From a virus, in IMG/VR virus record IMGVR_UViG_3300010970_000060, positions 1 to 20,843 of that record: 20,843 bases of DNA; one strand, written 5' to 3'. Position numbers and translations under genes: made by a program. The notes under the pieces are model-generated. The model had not been told where the DNA came from. It saw only the letters and a list, made by a program, of their open reading frames with translations, and did not search any database. Each line of letters opens with the position of its first letter. The first letter of the stretch is position 1. Positions 4,629 through 14,766 of the stretch are shown piece after piece.

Positions 4629-4631
4629 GTG

Positions 4632-5714
4632 ATGAATAAAGTATTTTTTGGAGAGTGTAGAGATTCCATGAGGAAAATGGCTAAAGATGGCATAAAAGTG
4701 CAATCTTGCATAACAAGTCCACCATATTACGGATTAAGAGATTATGGAACTGGAACTTGGTTGGGCGGAGATGAAAATTGTTCTCATAAAAGAGATAGTA
4801 AATATTCTGAAAACACTATAACTGGTCATGCAAACAAAGAATTAACTGTAGGAGATGCTATTTACAAAACAAAATGCCCTAAATGTGGAGCTGTAAGACA
4901 AGATTTACAAATAGGATTGGAAGAATCGCCACAACAATTTATTGATAATTTGGTAGAGGTATTTGCTTGCGTATGGGATTTGCTAGAAGATGATGGAACT
5001 CTTTGGGTAAACCTTGGCGATAGTTATTACAACTATAGACCAGGCAAAGGACAGGCTTTAAGCAAGCAAACTGTAGCTAATAATGACCAAGATTTGCCAC
5101 AAAAATGCGCTAGAAGAGGCAACAAATTAGAAGAATACAAAGAAAAAGACCTTATGGGTATGCCTTGGAGATTAGCTTTTGCACTTCAAGATTTTGGTTG
5201 GCATTTAAGGCAAGACATTATTTGGCACAAACCTAACCCAATGCCTGAATCTGTTAAAGACCGATGCACTAAAAGCCATGAATACATATTTCTATTAAGT
5301 AAAAAGCCTCATTACTATTTTGATAACGAAGCCATTAAAGAAGATGCTCATACAACAGACGATACAAACAGGGACAGAGACAGCACAAGGTTAAACAATA
5401 CGCCTGGCAGAACTCGTATGGCTGGGTTAAAAACCAATCATTATGAAACTAAAAACAAACGAGATGTATGGACAGTAGCCACTAAACCATATTCAGGAGC
5501 GCATTTTGCTGTTTATCCTGAAGAACTTATTGAGCCTTGCGTATTGGCAAGCACCAAAGTTGGTGACATTGTTTTAGACCCTTTTTTCGGTAGCGGAACT
5601 ACAGGTGCAGTTGCTCAAAAATTAGGCAGAAAATGGATTGGATGTGAATTAAATCAACAATATGAGTCTTTGCAAAATGAAAGACTTAGCCAACAAAGCA
5701 TGGAGCTAATATGA
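4632..5714 (+). CDS. Beta-class N4/N6 DNA methyltransferase
   Basis: This 360-residue protein has the catalytic motif [13 protein letters not shown] (Ser29-Pro-Pro-Tyr32) near the N-terminus. The S-adenosylmethionine-binding motif [12 protein letters not shown], is near the C-terminus (about residues 315-325). This is the beta-class order of amino methyltransferases acting on adenine N6 or cytosine N4. An insert between residues 50 and 86 holds C50, H52 and CPKC (82-85), a probable zinc knuckle. [10 protein letters not shown] is also typical. The start is ATG 4632, with GGAGG upstream; the helicase stop is three bases before. No restriction partner is adjacent, so it is most likely an orphan phage enzyme that protects phage DNA. 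The recognition site cannot be read from the sequence. Confidence 0.92.
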
Positions 5715-6058: not shown

Positions 6059-6288
6059 AAGAACTAAATGTCACTACGGAAAAAGATGGAAGTCTTACTG
6101 TTAATGTGGAAAGTCAAACTCAAAATATGGATGAGAAATTGGCTATAGCAACTAATAGCACATTCAAATATTCAAGTGGGAGTGATGTAGCTAAGATTTT
6201 TAGGGCTTATGGATGGAAAGCACCTACTACTTATAGAAACGACTTTTTATTTAAGGATAATCGTTTAGCTTCAGGACTTAGCAAGTAA
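6055..6288 (+). CDS. 77-aa early protein, unknown (last gene of rightward operon)
   Basis: It is coupled to the gene before it by an ATGA overlap. The N-terminal 30 residues are polar. The rest is better ordered (STFKYSSGSDVAKIFRAYGW, then KAPTTYRNDFLFKDNR) and might be a small DNA-binding or adaptor domain. I do not recognise a family. Its last 18 bases overlap the endolysin gene tail to tail, so the early rightward and late leftward transcripts converge here. No terminator hairpin is visible. Confidence 0.6.
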   Translation: MKELNVTTEKDGSLTVNVESQTQNMDEKLAIATNSTFKYSSGSDVAKIFRAYGWKAPTTYRNDFLFKDNRLASGLSK

Positions 6289-6792
6289 TAAGGCTTTTTC
6301 TTTGACTTCAGCAGTCCTTCTACTCCAGCCCTTGCCAAATACAGGGAAGGATTTGAGGGATTGCAGAAACTCTAAGCGTCTAGCACAGAACAGGGAAATG
6401 ACTTTTTCAGGGTCTTTCTCTGCTTCTTTGACTAATGCAGCAGTAATGCTACCGTAACCACCATCAGGAGTAGCCCCAACAGTTTGCTGAAGAAGTTTAA
6501 TGGCTCGCCCAACACCTGAGTTAACAGAGACATCAAAAACGCAATAGTCAAGACCAGATATAAGCTCATCAGCTCTGCAAGCATCCCAATACTTTCTTTT
6601 ATAGAGTGGGGCTACCATTAATGGAGTAAGACTACGCATTTCTTTTTCAGATACAGGATGACCGACCCATTCTTCCCATGTTTTAATCGTAACGCCAAGG
6701 TTTGTCATTCCTCCGTTATCGCGACTGTCATTTACAAAACCGCCTTCATGCTTTAAAAGCAATTCTAAGCACTTCTCAAAATTTTCTTTCAT
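6271..6792 (-). CDS. GH108-type endolysin (peptidoglycan hydrolase)
   Basis: This 173-residue protein opens with LLLKHEGGFVNDSRDNGG followed by MTNLGVT, the catalytic signature of glycoside hydrolase family 108 with Glu16 as the catalytic acid. The middle and C-terminal part (GLDYCVFDVSVNSGVGRA, LLQQTVGATPDGGYG, FCARRLEFLQSL, GWSRRTAEV) matches the peptidoglycan-binding half of the same family. There is no signal peptide, so export should depend on the holin encoded just upstream. The start ATG overlaps the holin stop by four bases (ATGA). It would cleave the glycan strands of host peptidoglycan at the end of infection. The length is normal for the family. Confidence 0.93.
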   Translation of the reverse strand: MKENFEKCLELLLKHEGGFVNDSRDNGGMTNLGVTIKTWEEWVGHPVSEKEMRSLTPLMVAPLYKRKYWDACRADELISGLDYCVFDVSVNSGVGRAIKLLQQTVGATPDGGYGSITAALVKEAEKDPEKVISLFCARRLEFLQSLKSFPVFGKGWSRRTAEVKEKALLLAKS

Positions 6793-7157
6793 CCTGCTTT
6801 CTTTGCATAAAATAGCGTTCTATCGCCAAAAAGGTAAAAACCAACAGCAGAAGCAAAATTGGTCACAGATACAGAAGGTGTGCCGTTAAATTCTAACCAA
6901 CACCAAGTACCCAAGACAATAATGGTTACAGAAGGTCTCATAAGGCGCACAATGGCTTCTACCCATAGATAAGATGGATTAGTACCACCAGCATCATTCA
7001 TGGCTTTAAAGAAGTCTAAATCCATCTTACGCATATCAATGTATTCGTTGATATTGGCAGGTTTAAAAGTGTCTCCAGCAATAAACCGATTAATTAACGA
7101 TTTACCTAAATCAACTACAAAAGGTGCAAAGGTCGCTAGGATGGTAATAGGGTCTAT
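6789..7157 (-). CDS. Holin-like membrane protein with apparent AUA start
   Basis: A conventional ATG start at 7034 gives 81 residues and has no ribosome site. The same frame stays open for 41 further codons to ATA 7157-7155, six bases after AGGAG. Read from there the product is 122 residues and begins [M]DPITILATFAPFVVDLGK, which looks like the natural start of this holin type (MDPIT-like openings with an NRF...FKPANI...DAGGTNPSYLWVEAIVRLMRP core). It has three candidate membrane segments: residues 3-22, about 76-92 (SVTIIVLGTWCWLEF) and about 98-117 (NFASAVGFYLFGDRTLFYA). No ATG, GTG or TTG lies in frame between 7157 and 7034. It precedes the endolysin with an ATGA overlap, so membrane pore formation is likely. 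The start codon is inference. Confidence 0.65.
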   Translation of the reverse strand: MDPITILATFAPFVVDLGKSLINRFIAGDTFKPANINEYIDMRKMDLDFFKAMNDAGGTNPSYLWVEAIVRLMRPSVTIIVLGTWCWLEFNGTPSVSVTNFASAVGFYLFGDRTLFYAKKAG

Positions 7158-7705
7158 GATGCACTCCTAAATCCACTAATTCTTGGGGAAAAAACAAAAG
7201 TTGCTTGGTATTGGTCTGGTTTAGGATTTAAATTAGGGTCAGCTAAAGCAAAAATATTATGACCAAAATTGCAATACAAACACCGACTAAATCCAATTGG
7301 TTTAACCCAACGGAACTGAAATAAGCCGTTAGCAGTAACAAAACACCAACCAGCTTTAGCGTTATCGTTATCCTTAATTGATATATCGCCCTTAACAACA
7401 ACTTCATAAGGTGCAAAAAGGTATCTAAGCGCAAAAGAATAAGCAGGATTACGCCACAACCACTTAACTTTAGCAAAATATCCTGTTCCATTAAGTCTTT
7501 CAAAAGTAGCATCACCATTCAAAGTGTTGTCAGGTGTCATAAACCAATTAAGCCAAGAAGGCAAAACAGGGCCTACAGCAACATAACTGTGGTTATCGCA
7601 CCACCATGCTTTTTGTACAGCAAACAATGGTAATACAGGAGCTAAAATGACTGCTATTAGTGTTATTAATAAGTTAATTGGTACAAGAAATATGTAAGCA
7701 ATCAT
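7154..7705 (-). CDS. 183-aa membrane-anchored phage protein (DUF7338-like) in lysis cassette
   Basis: Residues 1-30 are strongly hydrophobic (MIAYIFLVPINLLITLIAVI) and form one long or two short membrane segments. The rest is a soluble domain rich in Trp, Tyr and Phe, with VLPSWLNWFMTPDNTLNGD, WLWRNPAYSFALRYLF and CLYCNFGHNIFALADPN. This pattern recurs in a phage family that I recall as DUF7338; its function is unknown. The start ATG overlaps the 83-aa gene by ATGA, and its TAG stop overlaps the proposed holin start as ATAG. Its place in the lysis cassette suggests an envelope-related role. A 91-codon frame nested at 7243-7518 looks like a hydrophobic shadow. Confidence 0.7.
   Translation of the reverse strand: MIAYIFLVPINLLITLIAVILAPVLPLFAVQKAWWCDNHSYVAVGPVLPSWLNWFMTPDNTLNGDATFERLNGTGYFAKVKWLWRNPAYSFALRYLFAPYEVVVKGDISIKDNDNAKAGWCFVTANGLFQFRWVKPIGFSRCLYCNFGHNIFALADPNLNPKPDQYQATFVFSPRISGFRSAS
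7164..7168 (-). promoter_or_regulatory. Ribosome-binding site deciding the holin start
   Basis: AGGAG on the minus strand ends six bases before ATA 7157-7155 and three before ATC 7160-7158. It lies inside the last codons of the 183-aa gene. No ATG, GTG or TTG downstream of it at a sensible distance opens a long frame, so its only sensible use is initiation of the holin at a near-cognate codon. Confidence 0.5.
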
Positions 7706-8201: not shown

Positions 8202-8429
8202 TTAAGCAGCGATAGCTGCCTCAAATGGTGTCAAGTCAAAGCCAGCGTAGTAGTCACCCTTAGCAATTTGAATCTCTAAGTGTTCTTTATTACGCTTAAC
8301 TGTGTCTAGCCAATCTTCAGCAGTCATCTGCTCTGGCTTACCAGCAGCTAATAGAGTTACTGAATCCATAGCGGCAGCATAGCTTCTTGCTACTTCTTCT
8401 GGGGTTACCATGTCGATTGTTGTTGTCAT
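8202..8429 (-). CDS. 75-aa protein downstream of the tail fibre, unknown
   Basis: The start ATG at 8429 overlaps the tail-fibre stop by four bases (ATGA), and AAAGGAG lies eight bases upstream. The product is a small acidic helical protein (VTPEEVARSYAAAMDSVTLL, MTAEDWLDTVKRNKEHLEIQ, ending FDLTPFEAAIAA). Similar short proteins follow fibre genes in many phages. Tight coupling suggests a fibre chaperone or assembly factor, but no motif proves it. Confidence 0.6.
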   Translation of the reverse strand: MTTTIDMVTPEEVARSYAAAMDSVTLLAAGKPEQMTAEDWLDTVKRNKEHLEIQIAKGDYYAGFDLTPFEAAIAA

Positions 8430-9940
8430 TTTAATTCTCCTTTAAGTAAGTCAATTTCTGTTTTAAGCTCTTTTACTGCGTTAATAAGATACCAAATCAA
8501 TGGGTCTGTATTAACTGTGTAAACACCTGTAGTTTCTTGTTTTACACATTCAGGCAATACTGCTTGTAGTTCTTGTGCAATTGCACCAAGTTGAATACCA
8601 GTTTTTTGAATTGCTTGGTCAGGTGATATTTCAGTAACTTCTTCAGGTAAACGATATTCAAAGTTACGCACTTGAATTGCGGTAATTGCACTTAAACCAG
8701 TTTTGTTATCAACAATATTCTTTTTAAGTCTTTGGTCAGAAGTAATAGACCATGCTGCTGAATTGTTACCTTGATATACACCACCACCAGCGGGGTTAAT
8801 AAAGCCAGTTTGACTACCTTTACCTGTTCCACCAGTTCCAATGACTATTTCATAATTTGCACCTACGGCAGAAGCTAGAGTGCTGTAACCAATATGAGTA
8901 TTACCTATTCCAGTTGTAATATTATTGCCAGTATCAAATCCTAAAAAAGTATTATTAGTACCAGTAGTAACTGCTAAACCAGCGTGATAACCTACGGCAG
9001 TATTAGCCGCTGCCGTAGTGTTTGAGTATAGAGCTTGCCAACCATGAGCCGTATTGTTTGAGCCTGTTGTGTTTGTGTATAACGAACCAACACCAAAAGA
9101 AGCATTTCTTATCCCCGATGTATTTGCACCTAAAGCATAATAACCAAAAGCTGCGTTTTCTGCACCTGTTGTATTTGCACTTAAAGCTAATGAACCAAAA
9201 GCTGTTGTTCCACTAGCAGTAGTATTACTATACCCAGCTTGATAACCTACTGCTGTGTTGTTAGATGCGGTGGTGTTTGACCTTAAAGCAGAATGTCCTA
9301 ATGCAACATTTGAACCACCAGTTGTATTACTAAATCCAGCTTGATAACCTAAAGCAGTAAGATTTCCTGTTGTAGTTGAAAATCCTGATTGGTAACCAAC
9401 GGCAGTATTAGCCGCTGCCGTAGTGTTTGAGTATAGAGCTTGCCAACCATGAGCCGTATTGTTTGAGCCTGTTGTGTTTGTGTATAACGAACCAACACCA
9501 AAAGAAGCATTTCTTATCCCCGATGTATTTGCACCTAAAGCATAATAACCAAAAGCTGCGTTTTCTGCACCTGTTGTATTTGCACTTAAAGCTAATGAAC
9601 CAACAGTAGTGTTTGTTGCAATAGCACCACCACCCTTACCAACAGTAAGACCTGATATAGAAGCATCGTTAGCTAATGTTAATGTAGTGCCGTTAAAGGT
9701 CATATTGGCAGAACCAACGACTAAGCCACTAGAGTTATATAGGACTTGAGTAGTAGTAGATGAGCCTACGCCACCTTTAGTGCCGATAACTTGTACAACT
9801 CCAGCAGAATCCTTGTAAAAGAGCTTGCCATCAGCAGTATTTATTGCTAATTCGCCAGCAACTAGGTTTCCAGCAGTAGGAGTGGCTGCAGCAGTAGAGC
9901 TATAGTAGATTGAAATGGGTGTGTAGCCTGTTTGTGCCAT
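8426..9940 (-). CDS. Tail fibre with 17-residue repeats and S74 chaperone domain
   Basis: This 504-residue protein has three parts. Residues 1-100 are an N-terminal region common to phage fibres (GNLVAGELAINTADGKLFYK). Residues 121-357 are about 14 repeats of a 17-residue unit (type NTTxxxNTAVGYQAGYS; one unit has 16), probably forming a trimeric beta-structured shaft like YadA-type heads. Residues 400-504 are a Peptidase S74 intramolecular chaperone. Its SDQRLKKNI motif gives Ser401 and Lys406 at the five-residue spacing of the known Ser-Lys dyad, so the trimer should fold and then cleave itself just before Ser401. A coiled-coil tail (NAVKELKTEIDLLKG) ends the protein. It would bind the host surface. 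An exact 205-bp internal duplication lies in the shaft. Confidence 0.9.
   Translation of the reverse strand: MAQTGYTPISIYYSSTAAATPTAGNLVAGELAINTADGKLFYKDSAGVVQVIGTKGGVGSSTTTQVLYNSSGLVVGSANMTFNGTTLTLANDASISGLTVGKGGGAIATNTTVGSLALSANTTGAENAAFGYYALGANTSGIRNASFGVGSLYTNTTGSNNTAHGWQALYSNTTAAANTAVGYQSGFSTTTGNLTALGYQAGFSNTTGGSNVALGHSALRSNTTASNNTAVGYQAGYSNTTASGTTAFGSLALSANTTGAENAAFGYYALGANTSGIRNASFGVGSLYTNTTGSNNTAHGWQALYSNTTAAANTAVGYHAGLAVTTGTNNTFLGFDTGNNITTGIGNTHIGYSTLASAVGANYEIVIGTGGTGKGSQTGFINPAGGGVYQGNNSAAWSITSDQRLKKNIVDNKTGLSAITAIQVRNFEYRLPEEVTEISPDQAIQKTGIQLGAIAQELQAVLPECVKQETTGVYTVNTDPLIWYLINAVKELKTEIDLLKGELK
8994..9198. repeat. 205-bp exact direct repeat in tail-fibre gene, copy 1
   Basis: Every base is identical to 9399-9603, with a period of 405 bases (135 codons, eight shaft units of which one is 16 residues). 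The copies are in the same reading frame and encode about 68 identical residues. Identity at silent positions marks a recent duplication or gene conversion. Confidence 0.95.
9399..9603. repeat. 205-bp exact direct repeat in tail-fibre gene, copy 2
   Basis: This is identical to 8994-9198. In the protein this copy covers the first units of the shaft, from just before residue 121. The flanking sequence diverges immediately on both sides. Confidence 0.95.
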
Positions 9941-12512: not shown

Positions 12513-13624
12513 TATTCAAATCCTAAAAATTTAGGTGCTTGGGATGTACCTTGAGGCTTCATGTTTGGCCCACCTGTTACTTCAGAAAGGCTTTGCTTAA
12601 CAGGGGCTGCATAAGGCTCAGATACTCGTTGTGGAGTAGCACGACCTGAAGCAATGTAAGCACCGCTTAGCAATGTTTCTAAGCGTTGTTTTTTAGCGTT
12701 TACAGCAGCGTTTGTATCACCCAGTTTAGGGAAATAAGTGTCACGCATACCGGATAACTGTTCTTTAGTATAGGCAGCACCTGTACGCAATGTTAAAGCA
12801 GCATCTAACACATCTAATTGAGAATCTTCAATAATTTGGCGTTGAGCAGGAGTAATAGAGCGAGATAGCAAATTAGGGCCAGCAATAGCCGATACTACGC
12901 TTGCAGGGACATTAGGCTTAACTGCACTTGGGTCTACACCCAAAGCTGTTTGCATTTGAGCAATGTTTTTATCCAAGATATTAGCCATAAAGCCAGCTTT
13001 TCTTTCTTCGGCTGAGGGCATATTAATGCTTACGCTAGAACGCTTAGAAGCATTTAATTGGTCAATCTTGGCATTTACAGCTTGTAGCTCTTGTGGGCTT
13101 AACTGCTCTAATGGCTTGTTAATACCTAACTGTTGCATAGCTTGTTTAATCTCAGGAGCAGCTTTCGTGCCACCTGTAGCTAAATTAATAGGTTGTCCAC
13201 CACCAATATTAGGCATTACGATGTTTTCATCAGCACCTAGTTTTTGTGGCTTCATCAAATCAGCCACTAATGGCTGTAAGAATTGGTTGTTAGCAGCAAA
13301 CTGCATACCTTGAGCACGAGTCTCAGGGTTAGCCATAAGCTGTTGAAACTTAGCAAGTGCTTCGCCTTTCTGACCACGCAATGCAGCAGCCAGTTCAAGC
13401 TCTTTCTTGTCAGCACTTTTAGCTGATTCTGAGCCTACAGCAGCTTTAAACAAAGGGTTAAGCTGTTGAGACCATGATGGGGGTACATAGTAACCGCTAA
13501 TCATTTGACCTTGTGGCTGGTCTAATCCCTGAGACATCAGCAACTCAGCAATCTTCTTTTGACGGCTTAAATCGGATACTTCAGGCGTAACGCCTAGGAT
13601 TTCTTGTTCAGGAGTAAGTGCCAT
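12512..13624 (-). CDS. Candidate internal virion/ejection protein, 370 aa
   Basis: The protein starts MALTPEQEILGVTPEVSDLS and contains LLMSQGLDQPQGQMISGYYV followed by PPSWSQQLNPLFKA, a pattern I recall from structural proteins of betaproteobacterial podophages. The remainder is mostly helical and Gln/Ala-rich, with a Pro-rich C-terminus (GGPNMKPQGTSQAPKFLGFE). No catalytic motif, signal peptide or long membrane segment is visible. It is coupled to both neighbours by one-base stop-start overlaps. It probably acts with the 549-, 380- and 483-aa proteins in the virion interior. Confidence 0.6.
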   Translation of the reverse strand: MALTPEQEILGVTPEVSDLSRQKKIAELLMSQGLDQPQGQMISGYYVPPSWSQQLNPLFKAAVGSESAKSADKKELELAAALRGQKGEALAKFQQLMANPETRAQGMQFAANNQFLQPLVADLMKPQKLGADENIVMPNIGGGQPINLATGGTKAAPEIKQAMQQLGINKPLEQLSPQELQAVNAKIDQLNASKRSSVSINMPSAEERKAGFMANILDKNIAQMQTALGVDPSAVKPNVPASVVSAIAGPNLLSRSITPAQRQIIEDSQLDVLDAALTLRTGAAYTKEQLSGMRDTYFPKLGDTNAAVNAKKQRLETLLSGAYIASGRATPQRVSEPYAAPVKQSLSEVTGGPNMKPQGTSQAPKFLGFE

Positions 13625-14766
13625 TATGACCTCAGTAAGCTAGAGAAAATCTTGTTTTGTTGTGCTGTGTTCAATGATGTACCCTGAGTACCTGATACAT
13701 CGTAAACACCGGGTTGTTTGTTTCCACCAGCTAAAGCACCAGCTAAAGGGTTTTGGAATGTAAACGGATTCTTGTTTGATTCGTATAAGCCACCAAATTG
13801 CTCTTGAGGAGCTATTGCAAGGTTTTGTCCAGCTTTAGCAGCCCATTCTTGTTGAGTAGGCATTTTTGCTGCTTTCACAGCATTACCAGCAGTACCTAAT
13901 AACTTAGCAAGTTGTTTGGCTCTGTTTACATTCTTTAAAACATCTTTAGCATTTAAGCCAGCAGCAGAGTCAGCAGCTACAGAATCAATACCTGTCCCAG
14001 CTAATTCTGAAGCGTTATATGAGTAACCTAATACTTGGTCAATAGTGGCAGCATCGTAACCTTGGGCAGCCAAATTAGCAGCATCAGCAGCTAACATTGG
14101 GTCTGTACCGTAGTTAATCATCATAATATCTTCTAACTGTGCAGCAGTTAGATTAGGATGAGACTGCATTAATTGAGCTAAATCTTCGCCTGCACTAAAA
14201 CCAGCAGCTTGACTTGGGCCACCAATAATCTGTGTGTAAGAAGCAAATTCTTCAGGAGTTAAACCTGCAATAGCGTTAATAGAACCAATAGGGTCTGCAG
14301 AAGCATTAGCATAAGCAATCATTTCAGGAGTTAATGCAGCACCACCTTCGGCTACCAATCCCATTCCTAATGCCTCTGAACCAGTAGCACCACCTGCTAA
14401 AGCATCAAAAAACGCAGCTTGACCAGCTTCAGTTGCTAATGTTGTTCCGGCTTCAGCACCAATAGCAGCCAATATCTCAGGAGCAAAATATAGACCAGTA
14501 CCACCAGCAGCTAGACCACCAACTGTGTACCATCCACCAGGGATTTCTTTATTTACAACTTTATCCACTTGAGCTAAACCTGCTCCAATAGCAGGGCCGG
14601 GGTCGATTGCTGCAAGACCACCCAAAACACCACCACCGCCACCATCAGTACCTAAAGCACTAGAAATAGGGTCTGTAATAGCAGCAATAGGATTCCATCC
14701 ACCGCCACCACCAAAAGGTGTGCGTTTGAGTTCCCATGTCCAGCCTGAATGTTTGCTTTTAAACAT
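13624..14766 (-). CDS. Gly/Ala-rich structural protein, 380 aa, unknown
   Basis: A short basic N-terminus (MFKSKHSGWTWELKRTPF) leads into a run of Gly residues. Gly/Ala-rich hydrophobic stretches follow (GVLGGLAAIDPGPAIGAGLA, TVGGLAAGGTGLYFAPEILA). Residues 160-290 are helical, with repeated short motifs of the type LTxxxLxxxM. The C-terminus is polar (GVYDVSGTQGTSLNTAQQNK). The composition suggests a membrane-active or flexible virion component like the other proteins of this block. The start overlaps the stop of the 483-aa gene (TAATG). I do not recognise the family. Confidence 0.55.
   Translation of the reverse strand: MFKSKHSGWTWELKRTPFGGGGGWNPIAAITDPISSALGTDGGGGGVLGGLAAIDPGPAIGAGLAQVDKVVNKEIPGGWYTVGGLAAGGTGLYFAPEILAAIGAEAGTTLATEAGQAAFFDALAGGATGSEALGMGLVAEGGAALTPEMIAYANASADPIGSINAIAGLTPEEFASYTQIIGGPSQAAGFSAGEDLAQLMQSHPNLTAAQLEDIMMINYGTDPMLAADAANLAAQGYDAATIDQVLGYSYNASELAGTGIDSVAADSAAGLNAKDVLKNVNRAKQLAKLLGTAGNAVKAAKMPTQQEWAAKAGQNLAIAPQEQFGGLYESNKNPFTFQNPLAGALAGGNKQPGVYDVSGTQGTSLNTAQQNKIFSSLLRS

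Follow-up and report, generated by a model that had tools for sequence, protein, structure and literature searches.

To our knowledge, AUA, AUC and AUU start codons are known from just a handful of bacterial genes, most of which are tied to IF3. The S. aureus genes infC and ccpN (AUA) and cvfC1 (AUU) start behind extended Shine-Dalgarno (SD) sequences, and reporters with the ccpN AUA, citZ AUA or cvfC1 AUU start yield approximately 10-30% of AUG output in S. aureus (PMC13009471). In Streptomyces, sigR has a GTC start that is repressed by IF3 and that sets the ratio of its product to its partner (PMC5472188). Re-initiation that is not assisted by an SD is inhibited by IF3 as well (PMC2268962), and some alleles of the C. 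difficile holin gene tcdE carry ATT in place of the M1 ATG (PMC6200909).

Here we analyze a putative holin gene in IMG/VR virus record IMGVR_UViG_3300010970_000060, using the whole 20,843-nucleotide stretch of positions 1 to 20,843, which we refer to as the window. This holin very probably starts with fMet at an AUA codon through SD-aided de novo initiation, with an IF3-discriminated codon keeping its output low.

Results

Read from 7169 onward on the minus strand, the holin frame of the window is TAG GAG TGC ATC ATA GAC CCT ATT ACC, and no ATG, GTG or TTG occurs between the ATA and the ATG at 7034, a stretch of 41 codons counting the ATA. ATG-based annotation of this gene gives a product of 81 aa only. 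Four-base ATGA overlaps lie at 7705-7702 and 6792-6789, and the ATAG at the holin start is likewise a true four-base overlap. A sequence-only reading of this DNA had located the TAG, AGGAG, ATA, ATG 7034 and the ATGA and ATAG overlaps, and all of its coordinates check out (Table 1).

Table 1. Features at and around the holin start in the window
Feature	Position	Strand	Remark
Inferred start codon (codon 0) of the putative holin gene: ATA	7155..7157	-	Homologue Met1 aligns; ATA recurs in many contigs
ATC codon directly 5' of the ATA, possible second tandem near-cognate start	7158..7160	-	ATC at -1 in relatives
Shine-Dalgarno AGGAG, 6 bases 5' of the ATA	7164..7168	-	Spacing of 6-8 nt kept in AUA representatives
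TAG stop, upstream limit of the holin frame; overlaps the SD (TAGGAG, also in L001-L003)	7167..7169	-	
Putative holin gene, 122 codons from the ATA plus stop, MDPITILATFAPF...	6789..7157	-	No Pfam, PHROG or NCBIfam match
First in-frame ATG, rejected as start	7032..7034	-	Stronger constraint on residues 1-40 than on the rest
TAG stop of the upstream DUF7338 gene, making the ATAG overlap	7154..7156	-	
Upstream gene DUF7338 (PF24027)	7154..7705	-	E 2.6e-31
Endolysin, glycosyl hydrolase 108 (GH108), start in ATGA overlap with the holin stop	6271..6792	-	

Read from the ATA, the gene encodes a protein of 122 aa with hydropathy peaks at residues 4-22 and 64-82 and a weaker one at approximately 94-112. 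No Pfam, PHROG or NCBIfam profile matches it. Its predicted structure is helical and of low confidence (pLDDT 58.8, pTM 0.35), and a viral fold search with this poor model gave no significant structure match. In every examined locus where the sequence was readable (L001, L002, L004, L083, L084, L101, L120, L140, L219 and window 6271-6792), the gene directly downstream encodes a cell-wall enzyme or a likely one, belonging to the GH108, GH24-type phage lysozyme, GH19, M15_3, M15_4 or DUF5675 families and mostly joined by a four-base overlap. Because of these adjoining cell-wall enzymes and the hydrophobic segments, the small membrane protein is most likely a holin.

Behind this one holin family there are at least five unrelated endolysin families in addition to DUF5675, a pattern that suggests modular exchange of endolysins; DUF5675 may itself be a cell-wall enzyme. 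Elsewhere the window encodes a Sak-type single-strand annealing protein (1299-1838), a YqaJ nuclease (694-1302), an N6/N4 DNA methylase (4629-5714) and an S74-chaperone tail protein (8426-9940), a gene content that identifies it as a fragment of a tailed phage.

Using the 121 residues that follow the ATA as a query, we found 271 relatives in viral contigs and kept the nearest 80. All 80 align across residues 1-119 or more, and in 69 of them an ATG stands exactly at the position of the window's ATA codon, which bears out the start site that had been proposed from the sequence alone and offered for checking against homologue Met1. A distant relative, in Vibrio phage D526, has its annotated ATG in the same position. 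Three contigs whose holins are 96-97% identical to the window protein (L001-L003) also have ATA, preceded by the same TAGGAG at the same spacing, and their upstream DNA is unrelated to that of the window.

Residues 1-40 are more strongly constrained than the remaining protein. Across the window, L001 and L002, pN/pS over these residues is 0.029 with a pS of 0.50, and the corresponding pN/pS values are 0.042 in another AUA group and 0.080 in an AUC group. Because this pattern of synonymous and non-synonymous change shows purifying selection, residues 1-40 are translated and a start at ATG 7034 is excluded; the conservation of residues 1-41 had been named beforehand as a point on which the AUA start could fail. 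An ORF finder limited to ATG, GTG and TTG does report the gene as beginning at 7034, with residues 1-41 left untranslated. Against this annotation, to which we assign next to no probability, stand the homologues that begin at codon 0, the loss of the most conserved part of the protein and the loss of its first membrane segment.

The AUA start recurs well beyond the closest relatives of the window. A pattern scan for ATA, ATC or ATT at codon 0 recovered 99 contigs, among which the distinct contexts numbered 60 for ATA, 14 for ATC and 10 for ATT. ATT was rejected as a third start class, since in nine of its ten distinct contexts the preceding codon is ATG or GTG. In a few ATA contexts a canonical codon (ATG, GTG or TTG) lies in frame 9-12 codons upstream, in a stretch that is interrupted by a stop in close relatives. 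When the relatives were clustered at 95% into 156 non-redundant representatives, the start was AUG in 112, AUA in 24, AUC in 11 and AUU in 1, with AUG or GTG at -1 in the other 8, and all of the non-AUG cases are metagenomic contigs, none being a cultured phage. Two further scans left the start codon unspecified. AUA was the commonest start in the window's own sub-clade (34 of 63 distinct contexts, the remainder being AUG 27, AUC 1 and GUG 1), and another sub-clade gave AUG 40, AUC 2, AUA 2 and GUG 1. Parsimony on the protein tree counts 23 switches between AUG and non-AUG, a figure that is indicative given the few columns and many open forks of the tree and the likely recombination of the upstream region; the starred branches by themselves force at least eight changes of the AUG label.

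This recurrence bears on whether the codon is genuine. In principle a single base change separates ATA from ATG, so that the window's codon might reflect faulty sequencing or assembly, or a damaged allele. Such an origin is scarcely credible when the same ATA is present in many contigs of different samples, the SD spacing is conserved and the coding sequence is intact and constrained. The possibility of a read error, which the sequence-only reading had itself raised, is answered by the independent contigs that share the ATA.

Two of the relatives are irregular in ways that may reflect frameshifts or assembly faults: the C-terminus of the L174 holin is divergent and shortened, and L151 carries a deletion following residue 27. 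Just two relatives, L181 and L182, were found in contigs of bacterial genomes; these come from a betaproteobacterial MAG and Hydrogenophaga and hint at the hosts of the family.

Among the genes on the same contigs, the non-AUG start is confined to the holin gene. For 1,193 proteins of these contigs that start at ATG, we checked which codon their homologues have at the Met1 position, and found no convincing AUH start in any other gene. The 684 aligned N-termini of other genes have ATG, GTG or TTG, with GUG (83) and UUG (46) as the alternative starts, and the endolysin uses ATG in 23 of 23 cases. The apparent AUH cases listed outside the holin were discarded on inspection as the holin itself one codon off, as antisense or overlapping frames, or as having a canonical start alongside. 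ATA does align at Met1 in one homologue each of window genes 694-1302 (YqaJ) and 13624-14766, both candidate cases. An altered genetic code was rejected, since ATA sits at conserved Ile columns and so is decoded as Ile, and a search for a phage initiator-like tRNA reading AUA gave no candidate: the window has no tRNA, and the tRNAs found among 42 related loci are all for Thr or His.

The choice of start codons in the holin also bears on whether the non-AUG start is a product of neutral drift, whereby a weak start is tolerated in a gene whose product is needed in very small amounts, and has no regulatory role. Such drift would fit the many changes between AUG and non-AUG seen on the tree, as well as the low expression that is sufficient for holins generally. 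We nevertheless consider it rather unlikely, if possible. GUG holin starts are rare (12 contigs, few distinct contexts) and no UUG or CUG holin starts were found in the family, although elsewhere on these contigs genes without an ATG start usually have GUG or UUG. Tight SD spacing and a shared AUC at -1, both described below, are also unexpected under drift.

For the AUA start that we favor, an SD match of at least 5 nt is present in 21 of the 24 AUA representatives, 12 of which have the full TAAGGAG. The spacing from SD to start is always 6-8 nt in the AUA representatives compared to 4-12 nt in the AUG ones. SDs of AUG representatives are often weaker than those of AUA representatives, a strong SD being present in about a quarter of the former, and this association of SD strength with start class is confounded with kinship (3:0 with 3 ties in phylogenetically independent pairs, median p 0.25). 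Some non-AUG members, namely L004, L084 and L156, have weak SDs. mRNA structure is weaker around non-AUG starts, where the regions are also less G+C rich, and RNA structure at the window start does not exceed that of shuffled sequences (z 0.34).

Initiation could also depend on the upstream gene. The sequence-only reading had held that the odd start is tied to the upstream stop, with ATAG kept by the bases that the two share, and that the holin arises by coupled re-initiation, in which case ribosomes that finish DUF7338 would go on to make it. The overlap does exist in the window, L084, L093, L107 and L140. However, it is absent from 19 of the 24 AUA representatives, L001 and L002 among them; all of L001-L003 keep the ATA with no stop overlap, and no upstream ORF of at least 55 codons ends nearby in L001 or L002. 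Among the 36 non-AUG representatives, five have the ATAG overlap, one is of the UAAUG/UGAUG type and 25 have a gap. A conserved stop-start overlap, tested as a coupling trait of the non-AUG starts, was not found: the upstream stop overlaps the start in 7 of these 36 compared to 93 of the 112 AUG representatives. The members that are coupled are the AUG relatives, 88 of the 112 having UAAUG or UGAUG, in which stop and start overlap by one base (e.g. L223, L230 and L181). Neither the proposed tie nor re-initiation as the mechanism holds up against these counts, and stop-start coupling appears quite improbable as the source of the window's holin. We therefore prefer to read the window's overlap as incidental, given that ATAG arises whenever an ATA start has Asp (GAY) as its next codon. 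From the overlap counts, with AUG members mostly of the UAAUG/UGAUG type and non-AUG members mostly with a gap, the family would appear to comprise two designs: AUG starts reached by re-initiation, and AUH starts reached by SD-driven de novo initiation.

The codon that precedes the start, in the window an ATC that is itself near-cognate, is a further shared feature, and one that the sequence-only reading had passed over. AUC stands at -1 in 28 of the 36 non-AUG representatives, in unrelated upstream contexts, and when representatives are grouped by upstream sequence it is found in 10 of 13 non-AUG groups compared to 2 of 11 uncoupled AUG groups (Fisher p 0.012). Because AUC occupies this position in most non-AUG cases, it could be the start used, or both codons could be, and it may act as a second weak start. 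Initiation at the tandem AUC (7160-7158 in the window), or at AUC and AUA both, as in dual-start holins (lambda S), is nonetheless doubtful, as is its corollary that use of both codons would give a short protein and another one residue longer. Several AUA members have no possible start at -1, where the codon is AAC in L001, GAC in L002, GCT in L093 and L107, and TCT in L140; since all of these keep the ATA at 0, codon 0 is the common element. In addition, the SD lies just 3-5 nt from the codon at -1, below the 6-8 nt kept for codon 0.

Discussion

The holin start has the features of an IF3-discriminated start: its Met1 codon is non-canonical with no usable canonical start nearby, a strong SD is well placed (weaker in a few members) and the non-AUG codon is conserved in relatives. 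In the mechanism that we propose, the 30S subunit would be placed on the AUA by the AGGAG SD, which lies 6 nt before it (6-8 nt across the family). fMet-tRNA pairs imperfectly with AUA, and IF3 destabilizes such complexes. AUA, AUC and AUU are rejected by IF3, so initiation would be inefficient, and by analogy the holin would be made slowly relative to the endolysin, whose ATG lies four bases before the holin stop. Other family members use AUG, usually within a UAAUG or UGAUG stop-start overlap.

Analogy with the described non-canonical starts leads us to infer that the AUA start is of low efficiency and sensitive to IF3, and an AUA or AUC start probably keeps the holin scarce. An intrinsically poor start that lowers holin synthesis, as first suggested from the sequence, agrees with the published AUA and AUU reporter data (PMC13009471). 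That a weak start would delay lysis, or tie lysis to the IF3-to-ribosome ratio of the host, is something we only infer. A more specific version, in which lysis is gated by this ratio and the tandem AUC-AUA or AUC-AUC start raises holin when IF3 becomes limiting late in infection, seems unlikely to us. As speculation, the two designs, AUH behind an SD and a UAAUG-overlap AUG whose SD is weak, might be alternative routes to the same IF3 sensitivity, since IF3 also inhibits re-initiation that lacks an SD (PMC2268962). Roughly one in four AUG members has a strong SD; these members do not fit IF3 gating and would have lost this sensitivity.

The AUA and AUC starts of this environmental phage holin family are repeated in tens of independent contigs, and the family is widespread. 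Its many switches between AUG and non-AUG constitute a natural series for asking what weak start codons do, and if holin synthesis is IF3-dependent, lysis timing becomes testable as a response to the translation state of the host. There is also a practical consequence, in that gene callers that admit ATG, GTG and TTG only will misannotate the holin in such phages or shorten it by 41 residues.

We found no earlier report of AUA or non-canonical starts in holin or phage lysis genes in the open-licence literature. The described systems each resemble the phage holin in part. Like the holin, infC (AUU in E. coli, AUA in S. aureus, AUC in Streptomyces) has a conserved AUH start that is discriminated by IF3 (PMC13009471, PMC5472188), but infC is an autoregulated housekeeping gene of the host, whereas the holin gene is a lysis gene of a phage, its product is not IF3 and its start, unlike that of infC, switches between AUG, AUA and AUC among relatives. 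ccpN and cvfC1 share with the holin a non-AUG start that has a strong SD and is conserved in relatives (PMC13009471); these are bacterial regulator genes with measured reductions in expression, whereas the phage holin is known here from sequence. In sigR, a non-canonical start sets the ratio of neighboring partner genes via IF3, with sigma low and anti-sigma high (PMC5472188), but the codon is GTC rather than AUH, and the partners in the phage would be holin and endolysin. Lambda S (S105/S107) provides a precedent for a holin whose start region, with two close starts, sets when lysis occurs, although these are two AUG codons that give distinct products, along with an inhibitor, and the AUA holin of the phage is a prediction from its DNA. 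The tcdE gene is of a holin family and has an AUH codon at the start position in some strains (PMC6200909), yet it has downstream ATG starts at M25 and M27 and use of the ATT is considered merely possible (PMC6200909), whereas the AUA holin has no alternative start and AUH is common in its family. An IF3-discriminated start with an SD is already known; what is new to the literature that we searched is that a phage lysis gene uses one recurrently.
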